From an uncultured Bacteroidota bacterium (lineage in GTDB: Bacteria; Bacteroidota; Bacteroidia; Flavobacteriales_D; Sanyastnellaceae), in assembly GCA_903932685.1 (NCBI GenBank), contig CAIZGX010000061.1:1-41090 (forward strand): 41,090 nt of DNA. Direction: 5' to 3'. Position numbers and translations under genes: made by a program. The number at the start of each line of letters is the position of its first letter. Position 1 is the stretch's first letter. Of this stretch, positions 7,585-40,905 are shown in pieces. Under the pieces are notes generated by a model. That model made no database searches and was not told where the DNA came from. It saw only the letters and a list, made by a program, of their open reading frames with translations.

Positions 7585-8844
7585 ATGATTAAGCAACGTC
7601 TGACCGCATTAAGTTTTCTTCAGTTTTTCATTTGGGGATGTTGGTTAATTACTATTGGTGCATTCTGGTTTGAAACAAAGCAATGGGGTCCAGATGAATT
7701 CGGAGTGATCTTCTCTACCATGGGAATTTCTGCGTTGTTCATGCCGGCCATTGCCGGAATACTTTCCGACCGATACATCAATGCTGAAAAGCTATACGGA
7801 ATACTGCACATCTTGGGTGGTGTTTGCTTATTCTTTGTTCCCTCGTCGTCAACTCCTGATGAAATGTTCTGGAGAATATTATTGACCATGATATTCTATA
7901 TGCCAACCATCTCTCTTTCTAACACCGTCGCCTATGCCATTTTATCTCGCGAACCCGGAATAGATGTGGTGAAAGTCTTCCCTCCTATTCGAGTTTGGGG
8001 TACCGTTGGATTTATTGTTGCCTTGTGGACCGTTAGTTTAACTGGAAATGAGACCCATGAATTTCAATTTTATCTAGGGGGAATTGCATCTTTGATCTTA
8101 GGTGTTTACTCCTTCTCGCTGCCGGCTTGTCCGCCTTTAGGAAAGAATATGGAAAGCAAAGGATACTTGCAAGCTTTTGGTTTGCACGCCTTTTCAATGT
8201 TTAAAAATTATCGCTATGCTATTTTCTTTTTGTTCGCCATGTTGTTGGGTGCAGCATTGCAATTGACCAATGCATACGGAGATGTTTTCTTGCACAGTTT
8301 CGACAGTCTTTATTCTGACCCAAAACCCCTAGCTGTTCAGTATCCGGCTATAATTTCAAGCATTGCTCAAATCTCTGAAACCCTGTTTATTCTGGCCATC
8401 CCATTTTTCATGAAGCGCTTTGGTATTAAGCAAATCATGATCATAAGTATGGTCGCGTGGGTTCTTCGTTTTGCTCTCTTCGCTTTTGGTGATCCTGAAG
8501 GTGGATTGTGGATGATTGTATTGTCGTGCATTATTTATGGAATGGCCTTCGATTTCTTTAATATCTCAGGTTCATTATTCATTGAAAAAAGCGTTGAGCC
8601 CGGCATACGCGCAAGTGCTCAAGGACTCTTCACCATGATGGTAAACGGCGTGGGAGCTGTTTTCGGAAGTCGCGCAAGCGGATGGGTCATGGAAAAATAT
8701 TTCACGACCTACATTCCCGTTGAAAACGGCCATCACATTGCTAAAATCGATTGGCACAGCACCTGGCTTTGTTTCGCTGGTTATTCATTTGTTGTGCTTA
8801 TCTTATTCGTGATCCTCTTCCGCGAAAAGAAGAATGTTGGCTAA
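7585..8844 (+). CDS. Nucleoside:H+ symporter family MFS transporter (NupG/XapB-like)
   Basis: 419 aa, the same length as E. coli NupG (418 aa), with about 12 membrane segments. It opens with LSFLQFFIWGCWLITIGAFW and has IAGILSDRYINAEKLYG, the family's cytoplasmic loop. Predicted to import nucleosides across the inner membrane. It follows the flavoprotein gene by 11 nt. Its TAA stop (8842-8844) is exactly the 3-nt loop of the first hairpin of array A, so the repeat array begins inside the coding sequence. Confidence 0.9.
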   Translation: MIKQRLTALSFLQFFIWGCWLITIGAFWFETKQWGPDEFGVIFSTMGISALFMPAIAGILSDRYINAEKLYGILHILGGVCLFFVPSSSTPDEMFWRILLTMIFYMPTISLSNTVAYAILSREPGIDVVKVFPPIRVWGTVGFIVALWTVSLTGNETHEFQFYLGGIASLILGVYSFSLPACPPLGKNMESKGYLQAFGLHAFSMFKNYRYAIFFLFAMLLGAALQLTNAYGDVFLHSFDSLYSDPKPLAVQYPAIISSIAQISETLFILAIPFFMKRFGIKQIMIISMVAWVLRFALFAFGDPEGGLWMIVLSCIIYGMAFDFFNISGSLFIEKSVEPGIRASAQGLFTMMVNGVGAVFGSRASGWVMEKYFTTYIPVENGHHIAKIDWHSTWLCFAGYSFVVLILFVILFREKKNVG

Positions 8845-9085
8845 GCCAACGAATGTCTTCGACGAATGCCCAAGGGCGAATGTTGGTTTCACCAACGAAT
8901 GTCGAAGACTATACTTCGTAAGATTAATTTAAGTCGCCTGACATTCGCCTCCGGCATTCGTTGACAGAGTCAACATTCGTCCTTCGGACATTCGTGCTTT
9001 TGCACATTCGTTGGCTCTGCCAACATTAGTCCTTCGGACATTCGTGCTTCGCACATGAGCCTCCGGCGAATTGTTCATAACAATT
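8836..9085 (+). repeat. Mini-hairpin array A (GAAT/ATTC linkers)
   Basis: About 16 small perfect hairpins in 250 bases. The left half uses GAAT linkers: 8836-8850 (GTTGGC-TAA-GCCAAC), 8855-8863 (GTC-TTC-GAC), 8868-8877, 8882-8896 (GTTGGT-TTC-ACCAAC), 8901-8909 (GTC-GAA-GAC). The right half uses ATTC linkers: 8947-8955 (GCC-TCC-GGC), 8960-8974 (GTTGAC-AGA-GTCAAC), 8979-8989 (GTCC-TTC-GGAC), 8994-9005, 9010-9024, 9029-9039, 9044-9054 (GTGC-TTC-GCAC), 9059-9067. The halves therefore have opposite polarity and the whole locus is a large inverted array. It ends with AATTGTT-CAT-AACAATT (9069-9085). No T run, no ORF. It fills most of the gap between the transporter and the DUF3127 gene. Confidence 0.9.
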
Positions 9086-9139
9086 ACTTTCGAATCCTAA
9101 CAAGACTTCCGATATTCGTACCTACTAAACAATTGTATT

Positions 9140-24076: not shown

Positions 24077-24928
24077 ATGAAACTACATGTTATAGACACT
24101 GGATTTTTCAAATTAGACGGCGGTGCCATGTTCGGCGTTGTGCCGAAACAGCTGTGGCAGAAGACCAATCCGGCCGACGAGCTGAACCTTTGCACCTGGG
24201 CCATGCGTTGTTTGTTGGTGGAAGACGGTGATCGTCTGACCCTTATAGACACGGGCATTGGCGGCAAGCAAAGTGAAAAATTCTTTTCGCACTATCATTT
24301 GCAAGACACCCTCACCATTGACCAATCGCTTGCCCTGAGAGGGTTTCATAGAAACGACATTACCGATGTGCTGCTCACGCACTTGCACTTCGACCATTGC
24401 GGCGGAAGCATTGAGTACAATTCCACCCGCGAACATTTTCAACCTGCTTTTCCAAATGCGAAATTCTGGAGCAACGAAAACCACTGGAAGTGGGCCACAG
24501 AGCCTAATCCTAGAGAGAAAGCCAGTTTCCTTTCAGAAAACATATTGCCTATTCAAGAAAGCGGACAATTGAATTTCATTGAACGCGTGAACAACGTCTC
24601 GCCCACTCCGCTTGGCTTCGACGTCTTGTTTGTAGACGGACATACCGAAAGCATGATGATTCCGCACATTTCCTACAAGGGAAAAACAGTGGTCTTCATG
24701 GCCGATCTTTTGCCGTCTGTCGGACACATTCCACTTCCTTACGTTATGGGCTACGACACCCGTCCGCTTTTAACCATGACTGAAAAAGAGCTCTTCCTCA
24801 ACACCGCAGCCGACAATGGTTACGTTCTCTTCTTCGAGCACGACAGTGTGAATGAGTGTTGTACTTTGCAGCATACGGAGAAAGGAGTTAGACTTTTGGA
24901 AGCCGGAAGATTTGCGGATTTTTTCTGA
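24077..24928 (+). CDS. Metallo-beta-lactamase-fold hydrolase
   Basis: 283 aa. The zinc motif HLHFDH (about 101-106) follows the strand DVLLTH, with FVDGHTE and FMADLLPSVGHIP as later metal-site strands, and a final FEHDS. The long N-terminal region and the pattern DTGIGGKQ resemble the AttM/YtnP-like lactonase group, so a lactone or ester hydrolase is possible, but the substrate is not known. The stop TGA runs into the first AACTGCGTT unit of array C. Confidence 0.88.
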   Translation: MKLHVIDTGFFKLDGGAMFGVVPKQLWQKTNPADELNLCTWAMRCLLVEDGDRLTLIDTGIGGKQSEKFFSHYHLQDTLTIDQSLALRGFHRNDITDVLLTHLHFDHCGGSIEYNSTREHFQPAFPNAKFWSNENHWKWATEPNPREKASFLSENILPIQESGQLNFIERVNNVSPTPLGFDVLFVDGHTESMMIPHISYKGKTVVFMADLLPSVGHIPLPYVMGYDTRPLLTMTEKELFLNTAADNGYVLFFEHDSVNECCTLQHTEKGVRLLEAGRFADFF

Positions 24929-27489: not shown

Positions 27490-27519
27490 TTCCCCCTTTC
27501 TTACCTTTTCTTACCTTCT
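27489..27519 (+). repeat. Polypyrimidine decamer tract (3 units)
   Basis: Units CTTCCCCCTTT (11 nt), CTTACCTTTT and CTTACCTTCT, ending 4 nt before the stop of the minus-strand T9SS gene. Confidence 0.85.
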
Positions 27520-32327: not shown

Positions 32328-32597
32328 ATGGAATTGTCTAACGCACCTTTTTACATTCGCTGTATGGACGAGGATAAAGAGAAGTATGGCAATACAGAAT
32401 TACATTCAACAATAACGCATTACGCCATTGGCGACACATACATTAACATTTGGTTTGGCGGATTAAACCATCCGAAGAAGTACAGTTTTAAATCGGCAAC
32501 GGAGTCAACGGTTTTAAAAATGATTAATCTTGCTCAATCGGGAAAAGGACTGAATAGATACATTGTCACGAAGGCGAAGGGGCTTTATGAACGATGA
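32328..32597 (+). CDS. Small unknown protein, 89 aa
   Basis: No family recognised. Soluble, mixed alpha/beta look: ITHYAIGDTYINIWFGGLNHPKKYSF suggests two or three strands, followed by a helix TVLKMINLAQSGKGLNRYIV. No signal peptide or membrane segment. It starts after a 195-nt gap and its stop is 3 nt from the first unit of array F. Confidence 0.55.
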   Translation: MELSNAPFYIRCMDEDKEKYGNTELHSTITHYAIGDTYINIWFGGLNHPKKYSFKSATESTVLKMINLAQSGKGLNRYIVTKAKGLYER

Positions 32598-32722: not shown

Positions 32723-32728
32723 TTAAAT

Positions 32729-32768
32729 CTTCCCCTTTCTTACCTTTTCTTAACTTCTCTTAACTTTT
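32729..32768 (+). repeat. Polypyrimidine decamer tract (4 units)
   Basis: Four exact decamers: CTTCCCCTTT, CTTACCTTTT, CTTAACTTCT, CTTAACTTTT, ending 7 nt before the stop of the minus-strand lipoprotein gene. Confidence 0.88.
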
Positions 32769-35063: not shown

Positions 35064-35193
35064 TCGAAATTTCATTTCGATCAATCACTTCGTGATCAAT
35101 TGCGCTGCAATCAATCGCTTTGCGAGAAAGCAAATCCGTCGAAGACATTCGCGAAGTATTTGCCTGAAAGGCATTCGTTGCTCCGCAACATTC
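35064..35193 (+). repeat. Mini-hairpin array G (TCAA class joined to ATTC class)
   Basis: TCAA-linked part: 35064-35080 (TCGAAAT-TTC-ATTTCGA), 35084-35096 (ATCAC-TTC-GTGAT), 35099-35111 (ATTGC-GCT-GCAAT), 35115-35125 (TCGC-TTT-GCGA). ATTC-linked part: 35138-35146 (GTC-GAA-GAC), a degenerate unit near 35151, 35162-35172 (GCCT-GAA-AGGC), 35177-35189 (GTTGC-TCC-GCAAC). It lies between two divergent genes, so this array is not a 3' UTR on either side. Confidence 0.87.
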
Positions 35194-35921: not shown

Positions 35922-36079
35922 ACTTCGTTGTTTATTCTTACCCTCTCTTCCCTTTTCTTACCTTTTCTTACCTTTTCATATCGTCGAAGACATTCGCGAA
36001 GCATTCGCCCAACGAGCATTCGTGCTTGCACATTCGCCTGAAAGGCATTCGTGCTTGCACATTCGCCTGAAAGGCATTC
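35921..36079 (+). repeat. Mini-hairpin array H (ATTC linkers) around a decamer tract
   Basis: 35921-35929 (AAC-TTC-GTT, sharing the A of the stop codon), then the decamer tract, then 35983-35991 (GTC-GAA-GAC), 35996-36002 (GC-GAA-GC), 36007-36017 (GCCC-AAC-GAGC, one mismatch), 36022-36031 (GTGC-TT-GCAC), 36036-36046 (GCCT-GAA-AGGC), 36051-36060 (GTGC-TT-GCAC), 36065-36075 (GCCT-GAA-AGGC), all with ATTC linkers. Confidence 0.9.
35937..35976 (+). repeat. Polypyrimidine decamer tract (4 units)
   Basis: CTTACCCTCT, CTTCCCTTTT, CTTACCTTTT, CTTACCTTTT: four exact decamers inside array H. Confidence 0.88.
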
Positions 36080-38088: not shown

Positions 38089-38187
38089 ACCACACTCTTG
38101 ACAAGAAGAACTCTTCTTAAAAAAGAAACGCTTCACAACATACGCCAAAGCCAAAACAAGAACTGCTATGGTAAGTGCGATTTGCAT
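38080..38187 (-). CDS. FeoB-associated small Cys-rich membrane protein
   Basis: 35 aa from ATG 38187, which overlaps the feoB stop by one base (TAATG). One membrane helix (MQIALTIAVLVLALAYVV) then a basic, Cys-containing tail KKSSSCQECGKR (CxxC). It resembles the small FeoB-associated proteins that follow feoB in many genomes and may fill the FeoC position. A longer frame from 38313 lies inside feoB and is rejected. Confidence 0.75.
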   Translation of the reverse strand: MQIALTIAVLVLALAYVVKRFFFKKSSSCQECGKR

Positions 38188-40079
38188 TAGCTGAATAAAT
38201 TGAATGTGAGAAGCGCGAGCGTGTATGCCATGAAGCCCATGTAGCCCATTTGAATGAGCGGCCACTTCCACGATTTGGTTTCGCGTTTTACTGCGGCAAA
38301 GGTGGCCATGCACTGCATTGCGAAGACGTAGAACACCATGAGTGATAGTCCAGATGCGAGAGAGTATGCTGGCTTTCCGGTTTGAAGGTTTATGTCTTCG
38401 CGCATGCGTTGAAGAAGCGATTCGTCTTCCTCATAGTTTTCTCCAGCGCTATACAACGTTGCCATGGTTCCAACGAATACTTCTCGCGCTGCGAAAGAGG
38501 TCAACAACGAAACGGTCATCTTCCAGTCGTATCCTAACGGCGCGAAAACCGGAGCGATTGTTTTTCCAGCTTGACCCAAATACGATTCTTCTATTTGTGT
38601 TTTTCCTTGAGCCACTTGCTCTTCGTTTATTTTCGGGAAGGCAGCAAAAGCCCACAGGACAATGGATATGGCCAAAATAATTTTTCCTGCATCGAAAACA
38701 AACGCTTGAACTTTTTCCTTCAGATGAAGCAAAATATTCTTCCATCGCGGCCAGCGGTATTCCGGTAATTCAAGCAATAAAAAACTCTTCTCTTTCGAGC
38801 GAATGAATTTGTTCATGACCATGGCTACCAACAGAGCGCCTATGACACCCAAGGCATACATGGCAAAGAGAACAGTTCCTTGAAGACCTATAAATCCGTA
38901 CATGTATGTATTCGGAATCACCAAGTAAATGAGCAAAACGAAAACGGGAATTCGCGCTGAGCAACTGATCAGCGGAGAAACAAGAATCGTGATTAAGCGC
39001 TCTTTCGGATTTCCAATTACTCGCGTTGAAAGAATTGCCGGAATGGCGCATGCAGCGCTGGATACAAGGGGCACAATGCTTCTTCCGTTCAAACCAAACG
39101 GACGCACCAATCGATCCATAATGAAGACCACGCGCGTCATGTAACCAGTCTCTTCCAAGACGCCTAAAAAGAAAAATAGAATGGCAATTTGCGGAACGAA
39201 GATGAGCACACCTCCTACCCCAGGAACAATGCCTTGGGTAATAAGATCTGTGAATATGCCTTCAGGCATTTTCGTTTGAAGGTATTGACTAAAATTCAGA
39301 AACACGCTATCGATCCAATCCATGGGAATAGCAGAAATGCTGAACATGAATTGAAAAATGAGGAACAACACAATGCCGAAAAAGGCGTAGCCTAAAATCG
39401 GATGCACCAATAGTTTATCCACTTTCGTGGTGAATGAATGTCGAGTTACTCCAACAAACGAAGGAACCTCTTTCAATCGGTTTACAATGGTTGTCTTTCT
39501 ACTTTCCGCATCTCTTCTGGCTTCCGCGATGTTCAGATTTTCTTTCAGTGGGAAGGAAATAAATTTCTCAACGGGTTGAATGTTACATGCTGAAATGAAA
39601 TCGATCAGCGCTTGCTTCCCCTCGCCTGTTCTTCCGTTGATTTTCAAAAACGGAATTTGATTGAAGGCGTTGGTTAGTTCTTGCGGACTGACTGACTTCC
39701 CAATGAGCATGTCGTTCATGGTAAGGACGCCAATAACGGGAATATCGAGGTCGCTGATTTGTGTAAGGATAACCAGGTTCCGTTCAAGGTTTGTGACGTC
39801 TACCGTCACGACAACCAGTTCAGGAAAGTCAGCGTGTTGTTTGTTGTGAAGAATTTCCGAAACAATTTTCTCTTCTTCGGAGTATGCGTTCAGGCTGTAT
39901 GCACCGGGAAGATCGAGCAGTTCAGCCACTCTTCCATCGGGTAGATTGAATTTCCCCCAATGTTTTTCCACGGTCACCCCGGGGAAGTTTCCCACTTGTT
40001 GATTCATGCCTGTAAGCAGGTTGAACAACGAGGTCTTGGCTGTATTCGGGCTGCCGACTAGGGCAATTTTAGTACACAT
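38187..40079 (-). CDS. feoB: Ferrous iron transporter FeoB with atypical G-domain
   Basis: 630 aa, on the short side for FeoB. N-terminal G domain (1-165), linker, then membrane core with about ten helices including two Gate repeats (GVGGVLIFVPQIAILFFFLGVLEETGYM; CSARIPVF). G3 DLPG (56-59) is normal. G1 reads GSPNTAKT (9-16), Ala replacing the Gly before Lys, and G4 reads TMND (120-123) instead of NxxD, so GTP handling may differ. It imports Fe(II) across the inner membrane. 6 nt after feoA. Confidence 0.93.
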   Translation of the reverse strand: MCTKIALVGSPNTAKTSLFNLLTGMNQQVGNFPGVTVEKHWGKFNLPDGRVAELLDLPGAYSLNAYSEEEKIVSEILHNKQHADFPELVVVTVDVTNLERNLVILTQISDLDIPVIGVLTMNDMLIGKSVSPQELTNAFNQIPFLKINGRTGEGKQALIDFISACNIQPVEKFISFPLKENLNIAEARRDAESRKTTIVNRLKEVPSFVGVTRHSFTTKVDKLLVHPILGYAFFGIVLFLIFQFMFSISAIPMDWIDSVFLNFSQYLQTKMPEGIFTDLITQGIVPGVGGVLIFVPQIAILFFFLGVLEETGYMTRVVFIMDRLVRPFGLNGRSIVPLVSSAACAIPAILSTRVIGNPKERLITILVSPLISCSARIPVFVLLIYLVIPNTYMYGFIGLQGTVLFAMYALGVIGALLVAMVMNKFIRSKEKSFLLLELPEYRWPRWKNILLHLKEKVQAFVFDAGKIILAISIVLWAFAAFPKINEEQVAQGKTQIEESYLGQAGKTIAPVFAPLGYDWKMTVSLLTSFAAREVFVGTMATLYSAGENYEEDESLLQRMREDINLQTGKPAYSLASGLSLMVFYVFAMQCMATFAAVKRETKSWKWPLIQMGYMGFMAYTLALLTFNLFS

Positions 40080-40085
40080 GTTTTC

Positions 40086-40313
40086 TTAGCAATCGATGGT
40101 CTCTATGAGCGAGGCCTCGTCTTCGCGCAGCGAAAGTACGGCGCCACCGGCATCAATTGCAAATGGTCCACGGAAAGGGGCTCTGAAGAGCACTTGCACG
40201 CGCTTCCCTGGGTAAAAACCCATCTCAATGAGTTTCGCTCCCATGGCATGTTCGGCCACACTCACAATTTGTGCGTATTGTCCGGGTAGGTATTGCGCCA
40301 ACGTCTTTTTCAC
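40086..40313 (-). CDS. feoA: FeoA, SH3-like iron transport accessory protein
   Basis: 75 aa from GTG 40313. Typical FeoA: LAQYLPGQYAQIVSV, then MGAKLIEMGFYPGKRVQVL and a C-terminal LSLREDEASLIET. It is thought to bind and regulate FeoB. First gene of feoA-feoB-small protein. A TAAATTTG element ends 4 nt before the GTG. Confidence 0.94.
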   Translation of the reverse strand: MKKTLAQYLPGQYAQIVSVAEHAMGAKLIEMGFYPGKRVQVLFRAPFRGPFAIDAGGAVLSLREDEASLIETIDC

Positions 40314-40317
40314 CTTA

Positions 40318-40325
40318 CAAATTTA
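40318..40325 (-). promoter_or_regulatory. -7 promoter element TAAATTTG of feo
   Basis: Exact TAnnTTTG on the minus strand, four bases before the feoA GTG: near-leaderless start. Confidence 0.65.
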
Positions 40326-40346
40326 CTTTATCGGTAAGGAAGGGCT

Positions 40347-40364
40347 ATACCTTAAAAAAGGTAT
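40347..40364. promoter_or_regulatory. Candidate operator upstream of feoA
   Basis: ATACCTT-AAAA-AAGGTAT, a perfect 7-bp inverted repeat 21 bp upstream of the feoA -7 element, where an activator or the -33 region would lie. It could bind an iron-responsive regulator; this is inference from position only. Confidence 0.4.
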
Positions 40365-40382
40365 TTGGAGCTTCGCAATTGG

Positions 40383-40742
40383 AAAACCGAAGGTTTTATT
40401 CCTACTTCGTAATTGGAACTCCGTTATTGAAAATCCTTCGGATTTATTCCTACTACGTAATTGGAAAATCGGAGATTTTATTCCTACGATGTAATTGGAA
40501 CTACGTTATTGGAAATCCTCCGGATTTATTCCTACTACGTAATTGGAAAATCGGAGATTTTATTCCTACGATGTAATTGGAACTACGTTATTCTCAATCC
40601 ACGAATTAACTGATACGCGAAATCAATTGTGAAACAGGAATTACGAAGTAGGTATTACAAAGTAGGAATTATGAAATAGGAATAAATCCGACGGATTTCC
40701 CATTACGTAGTAGGAATAACGTAGTTCCAATAACGAAGTTCA
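40383..40742 (+). repeat. Mini-hairpin array K (ATTGG/ATTCC linkers), two opposed arms
   Basis: This fills most of the 465-bp gap between feoA and the tRNA. Left arm 40383-40589: 13 hairpins, including AAAACC-GAA-GGTTTT (40383), TAC-TTC-GTA (40403), AAC-TCC-GTT (40417), AAATCC-TTC-GGATTT (40431), AAAATC-GGA-GATTTT (40465) and TAC-GAT-GTA (40485). Bases 40431-40507 are repeated at 40513-40589 (82-bp period) with one loop change, TTC to TCC. Right arm 40642-40740: seven hairpins with inverted polarity, loops GAA, AAA, GAA, GAC, GTA, GTA, GAA and GGAAT linkers. Bases 40590-40641 between the arms are unstructured. Confidence 0.92.
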
Positions 40743-40753
40743 ACCATCCTCCG

Positions 40754-40761
40754 TATATTTG
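40754..40761 (+). promoter_or_regulatory. -7 promoter element TATATTTG of the tRNA
   Basis: Exact TAnnTTTG, 17 nt before the mature tRNA 5' end. Confidence 0.7.
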
Positions 40762-40778
40762 CCTCTCTCTTTGAGGAA

Positions 40779-40852
<74 letters not shown>

Positions 40853-40861
40853 CTTAAAATT

Positions 40862-40905
40862 CCCGTAAGTTATTCATTTTGAACTTCTTACGGGTTTTTA
40901 TTTTC
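40862..40905 (+). terminator. Rho-independent terminator after tRNA-Ala
   Basis: CCCGTAAG (40862-40869) pairs with CTTACGGG (40887-40894), followed by TTTTTATTTT. The long loop contains a further AAGTT/AACTT pairing. Confidence 0.88.

Follow-up and report, generated by a model that had tools for sequence, protein, structure and literature searches.

Several described repeat systems resemble the array studied here. In the organelles of Volvox and green algae, short palindromic repeats are intergenic, present in many copies, divided into several families, found in both orientations and thought to be selfish; they form hairpins with loops of 3-5 nt of preferred sequence (PMC2670323). These palindromes measure 11-77 nt, carry mostly TAAA or TTTA loops and are often nested by insertion (PMC2670323). 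Bacterial REP, BIME and REPIN elements are also intergenic, dispersed palindromes (PMC3733652, PMC3116915). They are sometimes oppositely paired, and their units measure 20-40 bp and have tagged ends, with GTAG or CGTC at the foot. In the LIMP repeats of Lobosphaera mitochondria, which are linked to rearrangement, inverted arms of tandem short units surround a loop found in both orientations, and each arm is a plain pentanucleotide repeat forming one long stem (PMC4524435). Finally, the GNA loop closed by a C-G pair is known from synthetic DNA mini-hairpins used as stabilising elements, with at least two G-C pairs (PMC4686876); the melting temperature of d(GCGAAGC) is 78 C (PMC4686876).

The window considered here is a stretch of 41,090 nucleotides from an uncultured Bacteroidota bacterium. 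Between feoA and tRNA-Ala it contains an array of mini-hairpins, a real and fast-evolving member of a mini-hairpin repeat system that is apparently specific to one genus. Like the organelle selfish repeats, these arrays are intergenic, dispersed, hairpin-forming and lineage-restricted. In contrast with the Volvox repeats, they are bacterial, consist of small tandem units with a constant spacer, often have GNA/TNC loops and are sometimes arranged in opposed arms. Their units are far shorter than those of REP, BIME and REPIN elements (at the feo locus, palindromes of 9 or 15 bp, below the 20-40 bp range, plus 5-bp spacers) and have no consistent Y1 transposase. REP, BIME and REPIN elements have a RAYT partner. 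Unlike in LIMP arms, each unit is itself a hairpin; unlike the synthetic GNA mini-hairpins, the units are natural and their stems are often AT-rich. In kind, the arrays come nearest to the palindromic repeats of organelles and bear a looser resemblance to bacterial REP elements; their unit size, their loop preference, their division into multiple families and their turnover set them apart. A literature search covering mainly open-access papers returned no description of them.

Structure of the array between feoA and tRNA-Ala

The array spans from just beyond a putative feoA operator up to the tRNA promoter region (Table 1). Judging from its sequence, the palindrome in the feoA promoter region is the probable feoA operator. 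The array start adjoins it in 5/5 array-bearing genomes read, the boundary being the same, AAATACC, in L021, L022, L023 and L026; the palindrome is present in the array-less L025 as well. On the other side, TATATTTG is what we take to be the probable -7 element of the tRNA-Ala promoter. In the region 40725-40761, the last right-arm units occupy the site at which a -33 element of this promoter would be expected; in the array-less L025, TTTTG lies there, 19 nt before TATATTTG. The array is located between two gene starts, that of feoA on the minus strand and that of tRNA-Ala on the plus strand, so that this gap holds no 3' UTR, as the initial annotation had stated.

Table 1. Features of the feo locus (window coordinates).
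Feature	Position	Strand	Basis or remark
feoB, after feoA	38187-40079		FeoB Pfam domain
feoA coding part (GTG start presumed; stop excluded)	40092..40313	-	FeoA Pfam domain
Palindrome ATACC-TTAAAAAA-GGTAT, feoA promoter region	40347..40364	no strand	sequence
Degenerate first unit of left arm, AGC-TTC-GCA	40369..40377	+	sequence
Left arm, 13 perfect hairpins, pointing right	40383..40589	+	
82-bp copy A	40377..40458	+	9 differences from B
82-bp copy B	40459..40540	+	
82-bp copy C, partial	40541..40592	+	same as B over those 52 bases
First near-identical 77-bp block	40431..40507	+	
Second near-identical 77-bp block, one loop substitution	40513..40589	+	
Centre between arms, 38 bp	40590..40627	no strand	
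Right arm, 8 in-register hairpins, opposite polarity, pointing left	40628..40740	-	
TATATTTG, putative -7 element of tRNA-Ala promoter	40754..40761	+	sequence
tRNA-Ala (GGC)	40779..40853	+	ARAGORN, Rfam

Units mostly consist of an ATTGG or ATTCC spacer and a palindrome of 9 bp (3-bp stem) or 15 bp (6-bp stem). In the left arm, the hairpins are all in register, with stems of 3 or 6 bp, loops of 3 nt and ATTGG, ATTCC or ATTGA spacers. The earlier count of 13 hairpins stands for this arm, whereas the right arm has eight instead of seven, TGT-GAA-ACA at 40628-40636 having been missed; owing to this additional in-register hairpin, the centre, previously given as 52 bp, shrinks to 38 bp. The inverted polarity of the arms is confirmed by two 67-nt segments, 40396-40462 and 40667-40733, which are 76% complementary and lie 204 nt apart. 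As for the proposed TNC loop rule (GNA on the other strand), it holds for most left-arm loops and has exceptions in both arms: GAT in 2/13 loops on the left, AAA and GAC among the 8 on the right, where two more hairpins are closed by T-A and not by C-G. C-G-closed TNC/GNA loops amount to 11/13 on the left and 4/8 on the right.

The longest chain contains 13 hairpins, against a maximum of 4 among 2000 Markov resamplings. Single-strand DNA folding gives z values of about -10 on both strands, with 0/100 shuffles equally good on either strand. In an Rfam scan of the window, the tRNA is the one match, the array being below the gathering score for any known RNA family, and scans for sigma-70 promoters and terminators found nothing beyond the tRNA. 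One long cruciform, as formerly imagined for the locus, is weakly supported by folding models. A single strand could pair arm to arm, with a predicted DNA minimum free energy of -73.7 kcal/mol (versus -43.7 once the right arm is turned to the polarity of the left, and -26.3 if pairing is restricted to local hairpins), but the arms are imperfect and the interval between them is long. Opposed arms of one family are, moreover, not peculiar to the feo locus.

The two 77-bp blocks are indeed identical save for one loop base, TTC in the first and TCC in the second. This near-identical repeat is real, but it belongs to a larger one with a period of 82 bp and 2.6 copies (40377-40592, 93% matches). Among the nine sites that differ between A and B, the two older copies, six are in loops, two form one compensated stem pair (AAAACC/GGTTTT versus AAAATC/GATTTT) and one is in a spacer; the concentration of differences in loops and the compensated pair fit the reading of a structure-driven repeat. 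Recent growth by block duplication, suggested from the window, is supported by a relative (G006), the one other genome found to have this ATTCC/ATTGG layout in the gap, which lacks the 82-bp period, carries a 34-bp duplication of its own and has fewer units.

The feo gap and other gaps in related species

For the feoA/tRNA-Ala gap, sequences from six different genomes were compared, the source included and the incomplete L024 uncounted; three genomes of the genus gave no FeoA match. In the five relatives, the array in this gap is either shorter and marked by a 34-bp duplication, or of another kind, or lacking. G006 has the ATTCC/ATTGG kind in the layout of the source, with seven right-arm units (one with a broken stem), seven left-arm hairpins and the 34-bp duplication in place of the 82-bp one. 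G005, G004 and G002 have the GTTGG variant, AAC-GNA-GTT with CCAAC-type spacers (read towards feoA), together with hairpins of other families; TAC and 6-bp family-1 units are absent from these three gaps. In G007, the array is absent, and the operator palindrome and the tRNA promoter motif are kept. In the G002 gap (L026:1652-2388), the array has two genes next to it, one for a HigB-type toxin (by Pfam) and one whose HTH matches are weak and below the cut-off.

Array content also turns over between species elsewhere. The gap after gene 7585-8844 contains family 2 in the source, G006 and G001, and family 3 in G004 and G002, while G005 has almost nothing there. The gap that follows gene 24077-24928 contains arrays of several kinds in the source, G004, G006, G001, G003 and G002, and G007 has no array in it; for G008 and G005, the fragments end before this gap can be read. 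Between orthologous arrays, changes are concentrated in loops: 8/332 stem sites, 11/231 spacer sites, 11/86 loop ends and 10/43 loop middles differ, in six hand-chosen pairs of which one is two contigs of a single assembly (G006) and another, the feo pair, includes a left arm with uncertain unit-by-unit homology. Stems differ significantly from loops and not significantly from spacers (p = 0.16).

Genomes carrying the arrays

Pattern searches across genomes covered family 1. A two-hairpin pattern matches 8/399 genomes of the order, all eight among the nine genomes of the genus, with 0/390 in the others; its reversed control has no match in the 399 genomes. A one-hairpin pattern is found in 8/9 genomes of the genus and, at a single site, in 1/51 others. 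In 20 samples from other genera (344 kb), no array chain was detected. G007, the genus member without the pattern, has one short chain in 40 kb that, judged by eye, is no array. From these sequence searches, the mini-hairpin array system seems confined to a single genus.

Related genomes that have names are Flavobacteriales assemblies, and we read a freshwater origin from their isolate names. Two assemblies titled Chryseobacterium gleum (L023 and L026) have FeoB sequences 96% and 100% identical to that of the source genome (over 94 residues only in L026); the two assemblies are probably mislabelled. SbcD has no match in 9/9 genomes of the genus. Among 40 genomes searched, any match occurs in 10 and one above the cut-off in 4; loss of SbcD as a permissive cause was rejected, the protein being missing from most relatives too.

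Array families in the source genome

BLAST of the array against the source genome gives at least 60 matches on at least 17 contigs, a lower bound with 40/51 candidates scored. Moreover, a 178-kb sample taken from this genome without selection contains 14 arrays, which, if the sample is representative, extrapolates to some 186 (roughly 190) arrays per genome. They are mostly intergenic (8/56 overlapped ORFs from a home-made gene caller). Families differ by their spacers and stems, with ATTSS and its variant GTTGG in family 1, ATTC in family 2, ATGA in family 3, AGA in family 4, and others.

Over the whole window, hairpins of the C(TNC)G or C(GNA)G type number 93 against 15 expected, and form nine chains against none in 10 shuffles. 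In 63 arrays, 288/430 hairpins show, on one of the two strands, a GNA loop with C-G as the closing pair; this share is partly built in, the array finder taking 3-nt loops only and at least two C(TNC)G/C(GNA)G loops. The one unselected test of loops is the ranking of closing-pair and 3-nt-loop types by excess over a Markov model (stems of at least 4 bp, 219 kb of the genome's own DNA), in which CGAAG, CGGAG and CGTAG come top and CGCAG eighth; none of these four is in the top list in 15 samples from the family. The rule has no simple dependence on stem length (188/278 for stems of 3 bp, 44/67 for 4, 13/27 for 5 and 43/58 for 6 or more), and is weak in family 2 (12/29, counting the loop alone with any closing pair). 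Among family-1 units in arrays, stems are perfect in 62/67 six-bp and 194/242 three-bp candidates. Loop orientation differs between the two: the 194 perfect 3-bp stems have 163 TNC and no GNA loops, the 62 perfect 6-bp stems 23 TNC and 30 GNA (Fisher 1e-22).

Two differently labelled blocks meet in 46 rows. In 26 of these, family 1 stands beside family 2 in a constant relative order (12 rows and 14 in mirror image, at least two being one place fetched twice). Opposed arms of one family account for nine rows (family 1 in four, families 3 and 4 in two each, family 2 in one), and two of the four family-1 rows are the feo gaps of the source genome and of G006. The outward (reverse) arrangement of same-family arms occurs in 0 of the 46 rows; in the other 11 rows, blocks of family 3 or 4 adjoin those of other families and no clear rule emerges. 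A dispersed feo centre was considered and rejected: its 31-base core (40598-40628), with up to three mismatches, is found once in the source genome and once in G006, both times at feo. For family 2, the centre after gene 7585-8844 is inverted at the sister locus of G001 relative to the source genome and G006, as recombination between opposed arms would give, and a near copy exists at a second locus of the source genome (L083, on contig C26).

Some side observations concern the window itself. The first hairpin after gene 7585-8844 (8836-8850) includes the stop codon, TAA being its loop. On the minus strand at 9033-9112, ARAGORN calls a tRNA-His that overlaps a family-2 hairpin array and is absent from the Rfam output; this call is probably a false tRNA created by the hairpins. 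A second tandem repeat, the decamer TTCTTACCTT, is present at 27498-27517, 32727-32766 and 35935-35984; its two-unit pattern (up to three mismatches) has eight matches, all on the plus strand, against none in shuffles. TCTTCCCCTC repeats are located at 35192 and 38048, the latter directly after an array.

Position and orientation of arrays with respect to genes

With gene positions from the home-made gene caller, contacts within 25 bp number 24 with called stops and 5 with starts among the 63 arrays. Where an array has a called gene on either side (47 arrays), it is adjacent to a stop in 21 cases, against 8.3 expected, and to a start in 5, against 3.9. Family-1 arrays are in sense orientation at stops (14/14) and antisense at starts (2/2), and in convergent gaps 13/13 blocks point inward. 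In tandem gaps, six family-1 blocks are antisense and two sense, one of the antisense blocks (window 32601) becoming sense if an 89-aa ORF ending at 32597 is a gene. Polarity set by transcription, which the 14/14 sense arrays at stops suggested, is thus not borne out in tandem gaps. In a hand count of the 22 family-1 blocks with both gene distances of at most 600 bp, 19 point away from the nearest gene edge, a description that fits better than orientation along transcription.

Discussion

It can be proposed, with about an even chance of being correct, that the array is structure-maintained repeat DNA shaped by template switching and block duplication, probably neutral or selfish and not a cruciform switch or an RNA element. 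Transient single-stranded DNA would fold into mini-hairpin units. Polymerase template switching within a unit, one stem arm being templated by the other, would then yield perfect stems and could invert the loop. Whole blocks, such as the 82 bp at feo, would be gained or lost through slippage or through unequal exchange between units, and exchange between arrays would substitute one kind for another in the same gap. The feo array would in that case be repeat DNA maintained in the interval that separates the feoA operator from the tRNA-Ala promoter. We infer the folding, the template switching, the exchange between arrays and the lack of function from the patterns described above.

Arm homogenisation is a reported product of template switching, and loop inversion by this route needs longer arms, flips in yeast having been seen only with arms of more than 9 bp (PMC8604942); one-step creation of perfect stems by template switching is also described (PMC8794818). 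The loop changes, the perfect stems and the distribution of TNC and GNA loops by stem length fit template switching without proving it: similar stems could also result from common descent or from exchange among units, and the argument from flipped loops is drawn from one family, family 1. The 3-nt loop is most often TNC, that is, a C-G-closed GNA on the other strand, an exceptionally stable DNA mini-hairpin; DNA energies of AT-rich 3-bp units are +0.5 to +1.4 in a model without a bonus for GNA loops. As regards neutrality, the enrichment next to stops and the presence of a feo-gap array in 5/5 array-bearing genomes read could mean selection.

A bolder reading, possible though doubtful, takes the arrays for a genus-specific repeat system that follows a grammar of its own and is multiplied by a dedicated, hairpin-directed copying process; they would then be no REP variant but a new class of mobile or self-renewing DNA encoded by structure. 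The grammar would consist of several unrelated-looking families with a preference for C(GNA)G loops, set in a fixed order or in opposed arms about a short centre and interchangeable between species within a given gap.

It is unlikely that the arrays work at the RNA level, by terminating transcription as clustered hairpins or by stabilising 3' ends, with the feo copy a bystander or an insulator. Clusters of hairpins after stop codons have been proposed as terminators (PMC8355165), and the enrichment of arrays at stop codons, together with the single orientation of family-1 arrays there, agrees with such a role. However, polarity in tandem gaps, the feo location and the positive predicted RNA energies (+2.1 to +2.8 kcal/mol for AT-rich 3-bp units) argue against it. 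The feo array stands between two gene starts and not, as an intrinsic (clustered) terminator would, in sense orientation downstream of a transcribed gene, and no terminator-like site was found in 40300-40900. A G.U-asymmetry test of RNA versus DNA selection was discarded in its loose form, which was dominated by non-array matches; restricted to the few one-mismatch stems, it gives 3 G.T, 2 A.C and 13 others.

We regard it as quite improbable that the arm-centre-arm arrangement is a mobile element of REPIN or MITE type moved by a Y1 transposase or another recombinase. Families 1 to 4 all have opposed same-family arms, one family-2 centre occurs at two loci (L083 of the source genome, and the gap after 7585-8844 in G006 and G001), and the source genome has a Y1_Tnp gene. 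Nevertheless, Y1_Tnp (PF01797) is present in 4/9 genomes of the genus and absent from the array-rich G003 (96% complete), and the feo centre is found at feo only. Mobilisation by Y1/RAYT was set aside, no consistent partner gene being found in the nine genomes of the genus.

Were the array to act on feoAB and tRNA-Ala at the DNA level, as a control or boundary element (either a protein-binding array or a supercoil-absorbing cruciform), this would account for the presence of an array in this gap in 5/6 genomes read, abutting the putative feo operator in those five, and for the predicted ability of a single strand to fold arm to arm. This too has little probability, given that array content is largely different between species, that G007 has kept the operator palindrome and the tRNA motif without the array, that periods of 14 and 20 bp lack helical phasing and that similar arrays occur at many other genes. 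Lastly, although the genome is a draft in 84 contigs, an assembly artefact is a far-fetched explanation of the 82-bp duplication, since its 77-bp copies carry one substitution between them, copies A and B carry nine, and other arrays have separate duplications, one of 34 bp in G006 and another with a spacing of 48 bp at G006:C1:48608-48866.

If structure-maintained repeat DNA is the right reading, these genomes record the birth, perfecting, flipping and multiplication of bacterial hairpin DNA, with close species serving as a time series. The arrays would also let the GNA-loop mini-hairpin be followed across a whole genome in a natural setting, and would caution that compensated changes in stems do not by themselves prove a function in RNA.
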